Part shown: positions 3,010 through 56,629 of the stretch, piece after piece
Layout: each line of letters begins with the position of its first letter
How positions within the stretch are numbered: position 1 is the first letter of the stretch
From: Hybos culiciformis
Lineage: Eukaryota; Arthropoda; Insecta; Diptera; Hybotidae
Assembly: GCA_964007475.1 (NCBI GenBank)
Contig: OZ023274.1
Span: 29,045,090-29,109,089 of the forward strand
Direction: 5' to 3'
Length of the DNA: 64,000 nucleotides
The notes under the pieces: generated by a model
What the model saw: only the letters and a program-made list of their open reading frames with translations
Databases searched by the model: none
What the model was told of the DNA's origin: nothing
Made by a program: the position numbers and the translations under genes

Positions 3010-3506
3010 TGTTGAGCGTTGTTGATCAAATTTAGTAATTTAGTCCTAAGCTAATTTCAGTGTTGCTAATTTCATTGAAAAATGTAAGATATTTTAAAAA
3101 TAGCTTATTGTTTATAAATTATTTTCTTAATTCGAATAATATTTGTTTTAAGATGGTAATTCTTAAATATGGTAACATAATGAATAACTTTTACGCGGCT
3201 GCTAACCACAACGCCAATGCCTTTTATTTTTGTTTGAAGCTACAGTAGACTTGAGCCAATTTAAATTTACTTAATAATTGGCTCAACCTACTGTACATTC
3301 AAACGAAAATAAAGGGCGTTGCGTTCTGGTTAGCAGCCGCGTAAAGTTACTCATTATGTCGTTTAAGATTGACCATCTTAAAATAAATATTACTCAAATT
3401 AAGATTTTAATTTATATACATGTGTTAAAAGTAAATCAAAAATTTGTGTAAATTCGCAACACTAAACTTATAAATTTACTAAATTTCAACAACAACGCCG
3501 AATATT
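3010..3506. mobile_element. Foldback MITE (about 0.5 kb palindrome)
   Basis: The two halves are reverse complements with modest divergence. For example, 'tttacgcggctgctaacc' near 3190 pairs with 'ggttagcagccgcgtaaa' near 3335, and 'gcgttgttg' at 3016 pairs with 'caacaacgc' near 3489. The centre is near 3262, where 'gagccaattt' meets 'aattggctc'. A transcript would fold into one long hairpin. Open frames here are chance. Confidence 0.8.
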
Positions 3507-26300: not shown

Positions 26301-26612
26301 AGTACGCTGTGAAAAAAAATGAGATTTTTCATATAAAATTTTGCTGTTGAAAAATGTTTCAAAAAATTTTTTTTTTTTTTTTGCATTGTAGTACGCTGAT
26401 AAAAAAAAAAAAATTGTTTACTGGGTGACAAAAAATTTATTTTGCAGCTGCTTTTTTTTCAAATATTTTTCTACCCAGGTAGATAAATGATTGCAAAAAC
26501 TTGACATTACAAAAAAAAAATTTTTGGTTTGTTATGATTTGGGTTTGTATGATTTATGATTGTTTGATTTTGGACTTTTGGTTAGAAAAAAAATAATAAA
26601 AAATTAATAAAA

Positions 26613-26883
26613 ATGGAAAATGAAGAATATCTAAATGAATTTTCTTTTTTAAATTATCCTTCATATCAAGAAAAAGTTGATGATGAAGTTAATGAAGATA
26701 ATGAAGATCCTAAAGATGGAAATATTACCAAAAAAAAAAATTAGCAAGAAAAAAAAAATATTTAAATTTATTAGGAAAAATTAAATTCCGAAAAAAAAAA
26801 AAAATTAGCAGCATTCATTAAGGATGAACCTGCTCTTTGGAAATTAGACTGCAAGGACTACAGTAATTTGTACGCCACTAATA
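26613..26883 (+). pseudogene. Remnant of the Harbinger MADF/Myb-like partner gene
   Basis: A start (MENEEYLNEFSFLNYPSY) leads into an acidic stretch. After poly-A runs with frame changes comes AAFIKDEPALWKLDCKDYSN, which looks like the start of a MADF domain (a P-LW pair followed by a Y). The rest of the domain is lost at the MITE fragment near 26884. In Harbinger elements such a protein helps carry the transposase to the nucleus and the DNA ends. Confidence 0.5.
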
Positions 26884-27010
26884 AGGCATGGCTCGGGCCT
26901 CGTTTCGGAGATAGGGCCCCTAAAGTTTTCATACATTTTTGTATGGGAAATTTTTTTTTTTGCCCGATTGGCCCTATTTTTGGGAAAAGGATAAAGGGGG
27001 TGTCCCAAAA
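26884..27010. mobile_element. MITE fragment related to 41529-41802
   Basis: The sequence gcctcgtttcggagataggg with 'ccctaaagttttcatacatt' closely follows the right half of the palindromic MITE at 41529-41802. Only part is present. It terminates the MADF remnant. Confidence 0.5.
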
Positions 27011-27031
27011 CAAGAGACATTATAATTAATT

Positions 27032-28624
27032 TTAATAAATTTGGTCTTGCCAAGACACTTTTCCTTCATCGGAATTGAAAATTTTTTTTAATTTATCCCG
27101 ATTAAGTTTTCCAGATGCATAATGTCTTCCTTGATAACCATTTAAATTATTATGAAACATGCTGTTGTCATTTAAATTCTTCCTCCATTCCCCCAGAACG
27201 ATTTCTCCATTTGTTGATATGCTATTAGAAACGAAAAACATTGAAATAAATATAAAGAACAAATAGAAACATACTTACTAATCTGCAAAACTTTTTGGGC
27301 AATAAGTGTTTCTACTTTGCTTTAACAAATAATTATGTAGATAACAACAACAAGTTGTAATTTTTTGGGCCCTTTCTGGTCTACATAGCATCATCCTTGC
27401 CAAACAGAACCACCTGTTGAACATAATGTACTTTACGTAAATTCAAGTTATTAAAGTAAATATTTGTTACCTTTTACATAAAATACCAAAAGCATTTTCA
27501 ACGCATCTTCTCGCTCTGCTAATTCGGTAATTGAATATCGTTTGCTCTTTATCCAGTTTCTTACCTTTGTTAGGCTTATATGGTTTTATTAATCTACTAT
27601 GTAGAGGAAAGGCGTCATCACCTAAAAAAAAACCAATAATTCAGTTCTATACATATCTTAACTATTTTCTCTGAAGTAGGAAGAAACCATAATTGCCTAT
27701 GAAAAAATAGTGAAACTCCTCGTTCATAATATAATTGTTTGGTGGAAATGGTAAAAAATCATCCAGCAACTTTGAGCCAAATGAACTTTTAAGAAAAACG
27801 TTTGCATCTCCTTCTGTGCCAAAAGCACCAACGTCGATATAATTAAATCGATAGTGCGCATCAGAAATTCCGAGAAGGACAATACTGTTGTAACCTTTGT
27901 AGTTAAAAAATAAACTACCAGAATTATTCGGTTTTTTTATGTTTACATGTTTTCCATCTACAGCACCTAGTGTATTTGGACAATTCCAGTAATAATTAAA
28001 GTCGTTTGCGGTATTTATTAATTGAGCTGCAGAAAAGGGTGGTATCTCATCTTTTAATTTAACGCATATTGCTTCACATACTAGATCAATTATTTGGCCA
28101 AAATATTGTTTGCTGATTCTATACATTGAAGCAGTATGGCGTTGCAATGTACCACTTGATAAATATCTAAAACAAAATACAAGTATAAATTTAAAAAATT
28201 TACATTTTAATTTAAACAAACTTACTCTAAAACACACGCAAATTTTTCTTTAGCATCTATATAGTCATTTGGACGTCTAGTTTTATCTGATATTAGCATA
28301 CCTTCTATTAAATTAAAAATATCGTCAAAAGTTTCAGGTGTCATATGAAAGTTTTCAATAAATGCTGGTCGATAATTTCTCATATCCTGAAACTAACATA
28401 ATTAATTATAAAAAAAAATTTTAACTCAAATAAATTTCAGGTATTACTGCTGTTCTTCCTGCAACTTTCCGCTTTTTTAAATATAGATTCACTCTAAATT
28501 TAGGTTTTTTCTTGATTTTTTTTATTTTTTGTGTATTTTTAATAGCAGCTAAGGCAGCCAAACAAACAATTTCATCTTCAAAATCATTTTCGGAATTTGA
28601 AGAATCATCATTTATTTTTTCCAT
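27032..28624 (-). CDS. Harbinger transposase (HARBI1-like DDE nuclease), multi-exon, nearly intact
   Basis: The minus-strand exons read in order. An N-terminal basic exon (28624-28421) is followed by [23 protein letters not shown] up to 28227. Then come [34 protein letters not shown] (first catalytic Asp) and [17 protein letters not shown] (second Asp region). GDDAFPLHS and [13 protein letters not shown] (catalytic Glu) follow at 27474-27632. [10 protein letters not shown]...YLHNYLL is at about 27273-27414 and the C-terminus [11 protein letters not shown] ends at 27032. Several short introns have GT-AG ends with consistent phase. The one before GDDAF would need a GC donor, and the junction of the first two exons is unclear. 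It may or may not still be active. Confidence 0.75.
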
Positions 28625-28929
28625 TATTATTTTTTAAAACCGAATATAAAAACTTTATAGGTAACGAAAATGAAAATTCGCTTACACAACAATATTTGTT
28701 TTTATTAATATTTATTTTAATAATTTAATGTATTTTTTATTTATTTTTTATTTATATTAAAATTATTATTTTTTAAAAAATTTATTATTATTTTTTTTTT
28801 TATTCAATAAAATTAATTTTTATTTGTAATAATCAGTTGCTTGTGTCAAATAGTTATCAAAATTTATCAAACATTTTTCAGATATTTTTCAGTGATATTT
28901 TTTGCAAGCATTTTTTTTGACAGCGTACT

Positions 28930-53020: not shown

Positions 53021-53566
53021 AAATTAAAACTTTTTATTACTAATTATTTAAGATACAATGGAATCTGATTTAAATATATTTTGATTGGAAATGATAATAA
53101 CTTCGAAAGTACGGTACTTACCTGGGGATTATACTAGACAGTAAAACTGTCTTGACGAAGACAGTGTTTATGTGTGTTGGTGAATTTTTATTACTTTATT
53201 TATTTTAAATTCACTGTCTTCTCTGCTGTCCGGATTTAAATCTGGACAACAGAGAAGACAGTGACAAAGACAGTACAGTCGGGAAAAAATTAAAAAACAA
53301 AGAAAACTTATGATTTCTAATAAAAAAACTTAAATAAATGCCGTATTTTTTTTTTCCTGTACTAATAAAAAAACAAACGTCAAAAAAATCAAAAGGAAAA
53401 ATTCATAAATTTCAAGGATATAAAAAAATTTAATAAAAATCCCTAAATAAAAAAAATTTAAATTTTTAAAAGTGTTTCGTCGTGCGGCTAAATTTTTGTA
53501 AGTTTATCTTGAATTTACCTAGGATAAAAATAAAACTGTTAAAAAAAAACTTTTTTTTAGGTTCAA

Positions 53567-55634
53567 ATGGCTGATTTGAAACTGTCTAGTGAACAGATCG
53601 TACAATTAATTCGGTTATATCGGGAGAATGAATGCCTTTGGGACATTCAGTCTTCAGTTTACAAAAGGCACGACTTAAAAATGGCAGCTTTGGAAAAAAT
53701 TTCACGTACCATGGGGATTTCCATAGAACAAATCAAGAAAAAGTTCAAGAGCTTGAGGGGCACATATTTGCTTGAAATGAAAAAAATTTCTAAAAGCAAA
53801 AAGTCCGGTACAGGCACCGAAAATTTGTACCGCTCTAAATTATTTTGGCTTCCTGAAATGGATTTTTTGAAAAATTCAATAACAACACGTCAATCATGTC
53901 ATAATATGATAGAAACAAACGTAAGTATTGGAAAATATTATTTTTATTTTATTTTATTATTTAAAATCATAATTTCTTTTAAGTCTATGCAAAAGTTTAC
54001 ATAATAATTGCTTCACATTACTACATGAATATCAATTGCATGGGCTTTAACTACCTAAAATAAAATTAAAAAATTGTTATTCAAATATAAATTTGTTTTT
54101 TATATAATACAAAATTTTACTTACATTCCAATTTTTTTCCATTGGAAATCCACATTACCTTCACCTATCATATAGTTTGCTAATAAATTTTGAATAACAT
54201 TTCCTCGTCTGTAGCCGCTTCCAGTGTATTGTATTTCAATTGGGGTAATCGTTTTAGGCAGCACTTCAGGCTCCAAATCATCGGCAACATTTGTTACATG
54301 ATTTAACGATAAAACTGCAGTTATTTTATTTTCAATTTTGTAATTATGTAAAACACAGCACGCTTTAATAATTTTATCTACCGTATCCAACTTAACCTCA
54401 ATAGGTCTGTGGAAAATACGGAAACTGCTTGCGAGTCTACCGAAGGCACATTCAACCGTCATTCGTGCTCTACACAATCGGTAGTTGAAAATTTTTTTTG
54501 ATGGTGATAAATTTTCACATCTGGAATACGGTTTCATCATATGTTCGTCCAGTTGAAATGCATCATCGCCAACAAAAAAATATGGGATTTCCGCGCTATT
54601 GCCTGGCAGAGGTGTTGACATTGGAAAATTCATAGCACCACTTTTTATTTGATTATATAAATAAGAATTTTTGAAAATGGTGCTATCACTTGCCCTTCCA
54701 TTCGATCCCACATCGATAAATAAAAATTTACAATATGCATCCACTACCGCAAGCATAATAATGCTGTGAAATCCCTTATAATTATAAAAATTTGACCCTT
54801 CGTTTGGCGGAGCTATGATTCTAAAGTGCTTGCCATCAATCGCCCCAAGAGTATGTGGGAAATTCCAAATATTCAAAAAATTATTGGAAACATTAATCCA
54901 TTCTTCTGTTGTTGATGGTACCTTAAAGTAAAATATTGTTAGTTAATAAAAAAGTAGTTATTAAAAATATGTGTAGGTATATAAAACTTTTAAATATTTT
55001 TTTAAAATTATTATCAAATTTTTATTTGTAGGAAGACTCTCAAGAAAATTTAGAACATAATTCAAGATCAAGAAGTCTAGATTTGTCAGGAACTTGTTAT
55101 GCCGATATCGAAGATCAGAGTAATGTTTTAAAAGAAATTTCGAATGATCAAAATGTAATTTCAAGTAAAAAAAGAAAAATTATTAAAAGTGGTGGTGAAT
55201 TCGACGTTAATGAAGCAATTGACAAAGTGATAAATTTATCAAAAGAAGATGAATATGATTTATTCGGAAAAAACATTGCAATAAATATTAGAAAAATTAG
55301 CAAATCAAGTGAATTAGAAGCGGAGGAAATCATGCAATCCATAAGTCAGCTTGTTTTCAACAAATTGAGAAAAACTTTGGAAAAAAAAAGTTCTCGGCCA
55401 GCAACATCAACATCATCATTCAAATTTCCAGAGGATACGACCTCCACATTCCGATCTACACCTAATTTTGTGATTTCTCCACCACCTTTTCATGAATATT
55501 CAAACATTAGTTTTGGGTCGGAATGGACAGAAATTTCTGATCCTTCTGACACTAGAACTTCTACTACTAGAAACACCATTTTGGAAGAAGCAATAGTAAA
55601 TGCTGAAATATCAGATGATGAAAATGATTTATAA
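53567..55634 (+). CDS. MADF-domain protein of the Harbinger element, two exons
   Basis: Exon 1 (53567-53920, 118 codons) ends at GTAAGT. Exon 2 (55032-55634) starts after TTTGTAG in phase 0, giving about 318 residues. The N-terminal MADF domain is visible as LIRLYRENECLWDIQS, KMAALEKISRTMG and IKKKFKSLRGTYLLEMKK (about residues 12-75), with YRSKLFWLPEM after it. The C-terminal part has a basic KKRKIIK stretch and a BESS-like helix region (DLFGKNIAINIRKI). In Harbinger elements the MADF/Myb-like partner binds transposon ends and brings the transposase into the nucleus. The 1.1 kb intron contains the catalytic exon of the opposite-strand transposase. Confidence 0.85.
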
Positions 55635-56096
55635 TTATTTTTAAAAATTTGTTATAAAATTTTATTAGAATAAACTTTGCTAAAATTTGAAAAAATGTTA
55701 GATGCTTACTTTTAGATACTCAGGTTGTAAAGCTTCATATATTGCTTGCAATACTTCAGGAACAAACAAAGATATTGTGCTTCTAGAAATTCTGGACAAA
55801 ATTTCTAGTGATCTATATGAATCTCCAGAAGCTAAGAATCTTAATGTGACTGCTAATTTGACTCTAGCACTAATTGCAAGCCTCATTTTTGTATTTATTT
55901 TTTCAATTTTAGAGTTCACCTAAAATGAATATTATTACAAAAAAAAATTCTAAATTATATATCTTTTGAAATTAAGTTTACTTACTTTTAATAAAAGACT
56001 TTCAAATTGTACAGGTGACAATCGAACAAAATTTTGATACTGTTGATTCTCACCCCAAATCAAATCTTTTAGAAGAGTGTCCTCAACATCGTACAT
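54121..56096 (-). CDS. Harbinger transposase (HARBI1-like DDE nuclease), three exons
   Basis: Minus strand exons: 56096-55986 (from MYDVEDTL; the true start may be further upstream), 55919-55710 and 54921-54121, all phase 0 with GT-AG introns, giving at least 373 residues. Exon 2 has LAVTLRFLASGDSYRSLEI and ISRSTISLFVPEV, the helix-turn-helix region. Exon 3 has HTLGAIDGKH (first Asp, residue 136), FIDVGSNGRASDSTIF (second Asp region, 177-186), FFVGDDAF (226) and CRARMTVECAFGRL (Glu, 264). The triad is present and the length fits the family. Its 0.8 kb intron between exons 2 and 3 contains the whole second exon of the MADF gene. Confidence 0.85.
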
Positions 56097-56629
56097 GGGA
56101 CGTTTAATTAAAAAAGGATAATCCACATAGTTCTACATTTTCTTTTTTTTTTAATAGTAACATCGGTTATTTTTTTAATGATCAAAATTTTAGTTATAGC
56201 CAGTTTTTGAGATTCTGAAATGGACATGATTTTTCTTCTTTTCTTTTAATTTATAAATCCACTTTTCAACTGTTTTCAATTAAATAAAAAATTCCGAAAT
56301 CTTTATAAAACTTCAATTCAAATCAATTTTTTTTATTTCCAAGATATTTCGATTTAAATTTTTTTTATTTTGTCACTTATATAAATAAAACTACATTACA
56401 AAGTTTTTTAAAATCTTCGAAACCGTTAAAAAATTCTTCAAAAATTTTAAATGTAGGGAAAAAAAACGTAATATGGCAGCACTAATAAATCTTCTGATAA
56501 AAAAAATCTGGACAGTTAAAAAGACACCCAACTCACTGTCTTGTTTTTTTTTCTTACAAACACATACACAAAACAAACACAAAGATCCACTGTCCGGACA
56601 GTTTACTGTCTAATGTAATCTGGGGGTTA

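Follow-up and report, generated by a model that had tools for sequence, protein, structure and literature searches.

The element and its two genes

The window analysed here is a stretch of 64,000 nucleotides from the genome of Hybos culiciformis (342 Mb in 509 contigs). At 53118-56629 it contains a PIF/Harbinger element that carries a transposase gene and a MADF gene on opposite strands. The features are listed below with coordinates in the window, strand (a dot where none applies) and basis.

53118..56629, strand (.): PIF/Harbinger element with target duplications (TTA on both sides, imperfect inverted ends)
53118..53120, strand (.): left target-site duplication TTA (read in the DNA)
53137..53274, strand (.): left cluster of six GACAGT/ACTGTC motifs (motif count against shuffles)
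53567..53920, strand (+): MADF exon 1 with the whole MADF domain (splicing, Pfam; conserved in families B, C and D)
53921..55031, strand (+): MADF intron, 1111 bases, GT-AG, phase 0, hosting transposase exon 3 (predicted splice)
54121..54921, strand (-): transposase exon 3, including the stop codon and most of the DDE domain (splicing, Pfam, alignment)
54922..55709, strand (-): transposase intron 2, 788 bases, GT-AG, phase 0, hosting MADF exon 2 (predicted splice)
55032..55634, strand (+): MADF exon 2, 200 codons and stop, C-terminal region (open frame, shared motif)
55710..55919, strand (-): transposase exon 2 (splicing, alignment)
55920..55985, strand (-): transposase intron 1, 66 bases (predicted splice)
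55986..56096, strand (-): transposase exon 1 as first drawn; 56096 is an internal Met and not the true start (alignment)
56120..56227, strand (-): actual N-terminus of the transposase, in a different frame from exon 1 in the window copy (copies compared)
56511..56610, strand (.): right cluster of five GACAGT/ACTGTC motifs (motif count against shuffles)
56627..56629, strand (.): right target-site duplication TTA (read in the DNA)

When the DNA was read and spliced, the five exons matched exactly, in coordinates and in order on opposite strands of one element, those given in a preliminary description, and all three introns were GT-AG and in phase (each phase 0), as stated there. Transposase exon 3 lies wholly in the MADF intron and MADF exon 2 wholly in a transposase intron, again as described. 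Each gene thus has an exon in its partner's intron without overlap of coding exons, an arrangement referred to below as a reciprocal interlock. The target duplications and inverted ends, reported as preserved, were both seen, the ends being imperfect. Membership of the PIF/Harbinger superfamily is indicated by a DDE_Tnp_4-type transposase (PF13359; residues 135-300 of the 373 as drawn, 128.1 bits against a cut-off of 24.8), a second gene with a Myb/SANT/MADF domain (PF10545; residues 14-101 of the 318-residue MADF product, 62.2 bits against a cut-off of 22) and inverted ends with a 3-base duplication, which is TTA in the window copy and TAA in each of three further near-full-length copies (98-99% identity). 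GC content is 31-35% in the coding exons and 13-17% in the spacers inside the gene pair. The 200-codon frame of MADF exon 2 is longer than the longest in 2000 dinucleotide shuffles of the transposase intron (131 codons), and the opposite-strand frame in the MADF intron, with 273 codons, exceeds the longest of 2000 such shuffles (147).

GACAGT/ACTGTC occurs 12 times in the element, with 11 of the 12 in the end regions (shuffled mean 0.68, maximum 4, 500 shuffles). By analogy with the zebrafish element Harbinger3_DR, for which it is reported that both proteins are needed and that the Myb-like protein binds a subterminal 9-base motif (PMC9710019), these repeats are probably binding sites, still putative, of the MADF protein. 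The same source gives the need for both proteins in transposition for rice as well as zebrafish elements. A 54-base near-palindrome (53211-53264; 31-base arms, 94%) stands beside the left end and has GACAGT/ACTGTC in both arms.

The MADF product had no relative in protein searches at E up to 0.001 or up to 10, so that the comparisons given below for this gene rest on the Hybos genome and Pfam. MADF exon 2 contains a D-E-x-D-x-F-G-type motif common to families A-G (family A being that of the window copy). Its frame cannot start alone because the first Met is codon 101. The frame of exon 1 reads on for 27 codons into the intron, which would allow a short MADF protein that still has the whole domain. 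In families A-D, AATAAA/ATTAAA signals lie in sense orientation inside the MADF intron.

For the transposase, 1588 homologues were found at E <= 0.001; the best 120 of the 1588 were listed and 19 were aligned with the query. Among the matches listed, relatives bear the names HARBI1 or ALP1-like. Those from Aedes (P0001), Calliphora (P0002), Lucilia (P0004) and Diorhabda (P0008) cross both predicted junctions uninterrupted (LLLK/VNSK and EYLK/VPST, slash at the junction). Four open frames of contigs (P0012, P0016, P0017, P0021) have their start between 2 and about 20 residues ahead of the exon 3 boundary, and an isoform (P0011) joins residues preceding exon 2 to those of exon 3. At the exon 2-3 site, P0009 has 20 extra residues, starting with V and ending FSQ, as would result from reading through a phase-0 GT..CAG intron of 60 bases; the 21-residue insert of P0003 at this site does not start as a GT intron would. 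No relative turned up in viral contigs; the genome contigs searched gave one distant match, a betaproteobacterial MAG contig (L001, JAHZIU010000197.1) that encodes a Harbinger-like transposase (39% identity) and is probably eukaryotic contamination.

In several relatives about 40-50 residues precede the start as first drawn. A match to this N-terminus lies upstream in another frame, at 56120-56227, and is in frame in the copies on contigs C172 and C1. One base near 56118 is missing from the window copy and present in the three other near-identical copies; the break may be an assembly error beside a T run. The statement that both products look complete was therefore not upheld for the transposase, whose N-terminus is upstream of the assumed ATG, behind the one-base frame break, and the window copy lacks the two intact genes of an autonomous element. 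An intron between the N-terminus and exon 1 was considered and rejected, since the frames adjoin without room for one and are continuous in two copies. A donor-like GTAAGT at the transposase stop in families A and B was read as a stop, since C and D are without it.

Of the four near-full-length copies of family A, the one on C172 is the only one open in all exons. The one-base break in the C441 copy is a different one, within an A run, and this copy has short deletions in transposase exon 3 and MADF exon 2 as well; the C1 copy is without the MADF start. An older copy lies in three pieces at C1:80.80-80.85 Mb. Among the recent copies, 8 of 9 variable codons in MADF exon 2 and 6 of 8 in transposase exon 3 are nonsynonymous. 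The left end has 32 further genomic matches, most of them adjoining a right-end match, as the pairing in a miniature (MITE-like) family would give, which suggests such a family; with 40 of 622 candidates scored, all copy counts are lower bounds. The MITE-like sequences comprise the first ~256 bases (53118-53373) and the last ~147 bases (56483-56629) of the element, about 90-96% and 79-92% identical, and several of them stand adjacent at C2:1,823,637-1,824,889.

Interlocked families in the same genome

The preliminary description had proposed a search for other copies and for conservation of the interlock, and the layout indeed recurred, both in the further copies and in families that have diverged. 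The exon order of A is shared by family B (C14), by family C (C51 and C2:58.37 Mb) and by family D (C2:60.27 Mb; near-identical duplicate, flanks included, at C2:60.22 Mb); MADF exon 2 of family C was found as an open frame at the expected place and not via tblastn. Identity to A in B, C and D is 80, 66 and 68% for transposase exon 3 and 50, 27 and 33% for MADF exon 2. Donor and acceptor sites are kept in all four families, family C having a GC-AG intron: in both of its loci (L012, L011) GC instead of GT stands at the donor of transposase exon 2, that is, in the intron hosting MADF exon 2. In family B, MADF exon 1 and transposase exon 2 are each interrupted by a stop, and exon 2 also contains an insert.

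Most A-D pairs are at or close to saturation at synonymous sites. dN/dS was 0.06-0.11 for transposase exon 3 (4 of 6 pairs with estimable dS), 0.43-0.54 for MADF exon 2 (5 of 6) and 0.18 for MADF exon 1 (1 of 6). By this codon comparison, the exons of both genes were shown to be under purifying selection. The spacers gave no convincing alignment, and their lengths differ:

MADF exon 1 to transposase exon 3: 200, 361, 509 and 196 bases in A, B, C and D
Transposase exon 3 to MADF exon 2: 110, 130, 42 and 62 bases
MADF exon 2 to transposase exon 2: 75, 287, 352 and 346 bases

What is conserved is the exons and their order, not the spacer sequence; spacers that vary in length and do not align are expected if constraint falls on exons and order alone.

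These data bear on the reading that MADF exon 2 is optional or unused, the working protein ending in the intron and the 200-codon frame being a relic or part of another product. As this reading would have it, exon 1 contains the entire MADF domain in A-D and its frame can continue into the intron, but the exon 2 frame is open and conserved with the dN/dS given above, has no early Met, keeps its acceptor sites and shares its motif across A-G, and in family II (below) the MADF domain itself requires exon 2. We regard such a dispensable second exon as improbable.

For a wider survey, a protein search of the genome gave at least 130 matches, and 110 of 533 candidates were scored. The loci inspected were high-ranking matches with some more distant ones, chosen by score and thus not random. 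Among 17 transposase families, the interlock was full in 11, half in 1, absent in 4 and undecided in 1. The full order occurs at the window's transposase intron site in A, B, C, D, E (L021), F (L022), J (L034) and K (L037), and at another transposase site in II (L025-L027), III (L028, L033) and IV (L030). In E transposase exon 1 falls outside the stretch fetched, and in K the MADF exon 2 acceptor was not pinned. In G (L024) no more than transposase exon 3 and MADF exon 2 was seen, the two standing back to back. H (L023), V (L029), VI (L031, L035) and VII (L032) are not interlocked, V, VI and VII being plain convergent families of the same genome. The undecided case is L036, where no MADF frame was recognisable at the locus.

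The usual Harbinger layout had been described as two separate genes, with element 1 of the window (26301-28929) as the example. That holds in part: plain convergent families exist, and element 1 is, as far as readable, of the plain convergent group VI, like L031 and L035, but 11 of the 17 inspected families are interlocked. The MADF frame of element 1 stops near 26890 and is followed by unrelated sequence; its joined frame pieces formed a very long branch in one tree and were dropped.

In nine of the 11 interlocked families (A, C, D, F, II, III, IV, J and K) inverted ends enclose the exons seen; for B and E no such ends were found within the stretch fetched. TAA or TTA duplications were readable in A, C, II, IV, J and K. 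Two overlapping insertions, named in the preliminary description as a case that would overturn it, or a chance arrangement of frames, had almost no probability in our assessment: a single pair of inverted ends surrounds the exons in those nine families, the order is conserved in diverged families and the frames far exceed those of shuffles. This explanation was refuted by the order conserved within single elements. Judged from the DNA, the interlock is a real architecture and not peculiar to the window copy.

In the version present in II-IV, the transposase intron is in phase 2, within the R codon preceding Y/F/H-LAT, and the MADF intron splits the MADF domain. In one copy of II (L026), MADF exon 1 alone scored 27.6 bits (profile 1-36) and exons 1 and 2 joined 41.0 bits (1-62), with no MADF match for exon 2 alone. 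In III the exon 1-2 frame remained unmatched at visible splice sites, and MADF exon 1 of IV is interrupted by a stop; we regard III and IV as damaged copies in which the exon order is unchanged.

History of the layout

The groups were named once the layouts had been seen and before the trees were made. The last tree places H with A-F (99/95) and G, without resolution, near them; J and K fall elsewhere, and II-IV are separate (100/95). A single clade for all interlocked rows was rejected (p-AU 2e-9 with 10 rows, 2.5e-38 with 12 rows). II-IV look like a separate origin because both genes have other introns.

MADF exon 2 of J and K matched the A-G profile at 15.9 and 13.6 bits (0 of 1000 shuffles each), so there may have been a single ancient interlock at that site, followed by losses. 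Against the C-terminus of V, 18 of 1000 shuffles scored as high, and 2 of 1000 with an enlarged profile; by profiles and shuffles, no homology of MADF exon 2 to the C-termini of V, VI, VII, II, III or IV was shown. With a single old interlock in place of repeated gain, A-G, J and K would have retained it, and V, VI, VII and P0009-like elements would have lost it. The common transposase site and phase of A-F, J and K, together with the two profile matches, argue for it; A-G, J and K nevertheless lie apart on the tree with non-interlocked rows between them, some branches being weak, and inclusion of II-IV in the same event needs intron moves in both genes. We give this history a little under an even chance. 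It concerns descent only and is compatible with the explanation of the layout preferred below.

V, whose MADF gene is plain convergent, has a 67-base intron, readable as phase 0, at the transposase site of the window element and could model the state before the interlock or after its loss. In H (L023, G000:C67:53000-58500), transposase exons 2 and 3 are fused at the exact junction (3042-3043) with intron 1 kept, and no MADF exon 2 match was found in the 5.5 kb fetched. In H, then, the intron that contains MADF exon 2 in the interlocked families would have been removed precisely, in a copy that also carries frame breaks. Losses of this exactness are usually attributed to a spliced RNA copy; if it came about in this way, the fusion would be indirect evidence for the exon 2-3 splice. 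The homologues and family II likewise lend the predicted splice patterns indirect support.

As a conjecture, the interlock arose by duplication and loss. A plain convergent arrangement like that of V, with MADF exons 1 and 2 followed by transposase exons 3 and 2 (M1 M2 / T3 T2), would have undergone tandem duplication of the M2-T3 pair to M2 T3 M2 T3; loss of the outer copies, one of four ways to lose one copy each, would leave T3 M2, the interlock. The layout would then tend to persist, undone only by another rearrangement or by precise intron loss. No intermediate was seen among the families inspected.

Expression and comparison with known arrangements

The explanation we consider probable, by a modest preponderance, is that of a PIF/Harbinger transposon whose transposase and MADF genes overrun each other convergently, the layout acting as a structural ratchet with interference as a by-product. 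Each gene would be transcribed from its own element end, and splicing would remove the partner's antisense exon along with the intron, so that the mature coding sequences would have no complementary stretch in common. The MADF protein would bind the motifs near the ends and help the transposase to act there. Coupling, if any, would act on transcription or nuclear RNA, and any transcriptional interference would be a by-product of the layout. Counting against this explanation are the possible short MADF protein, the sense AATAAA/ATTAAA signals in the MADF intron, the mostly nonsynonymous differences among recent family A copies and the shuffle result for the C-terminus of V. Because the coding exons do not overlap, an antisense effect, if any, is limited to pre-mRNA and untranslated ends. 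It was too strong to claim that neither gene can be deleted cleanly: each inner exon is wholly inside the partner's intron, and either could go without harm to the partner's coding sequence.

A selected coupling was weighed in its place. Convergent interlocked transcription would make each gene limit its partner, through polymerase collision, nuclear double-stranded RNA or small RNAs, with transposition kept low or balanced, and the layout would be kept and recurrent for that reason. Its presence in at least four separate places of the tree (A-G; J; K; II-IV), with different introns of both genes in the second version, is in line with this, yet the A-D spacers do not align, coding exons do not overlap and plain convergent V, VI and VII coexist in the genome. 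We hold such coupling to be unlikely; equally doubtful is the fuller proposal that the interlock arose more than once and was kept by expression coupling as a built-in limiter of transposition from layout alone. Under the preferred structural ratchet, a convergent pair was hooked together and stayed hooked while synonymous sites saturated.

Within a known superfamily, the interlocked architecture is conserved in near relatives and occurs in several separate groups. Animal PIF/Harbinger elements (Harbinger3_DR; insect PIF with MADF) have the same DDE transposase with a Myb/MADF gene, 3-base duplications and inverted ends; in the literature consulted (among it PMC9710019), their genes are described side by side with no mention of reciprocal exons in introns, unlike the interlocked Hybos element. 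Non-nested intron/exon overlaps of cellular genes, 160 of which are given for human (Makalowska et al. 2007, PMC2151771, Table 1), are similar in that exons of one gene lie in introns of the other without exon-exon overlap. They involve host genes and are mostly unconserved between lineages, whereas the Harbinger interlock is mobile and kept across diverged families. In Drosophila, 2mit lies on the other strand within a timeless2 intron, and the likeness to this opposite-strand gene within an intron ends with its nesting, which is one-way (PMC3786989) and reciprocal in the Harbinger element. In the open-licence literature, no description of an interlocked Harbinger or other transposon was recognised; some Repbase records may hold such exon joins without comment.

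Found in many diverged relatives of the same genome, the interlock is a lasting two-gene arrangement and no peculiarity of a single copy. One genome contains interlocked, plain convergent and un-hooked (intron-lost) forms side by side, so that the origin, persistence and possible cost of interlocked genes can be tested by comparison and experiment. Where annotation handles the two strands separately, the second Harbinger gene may be split or overlooked.
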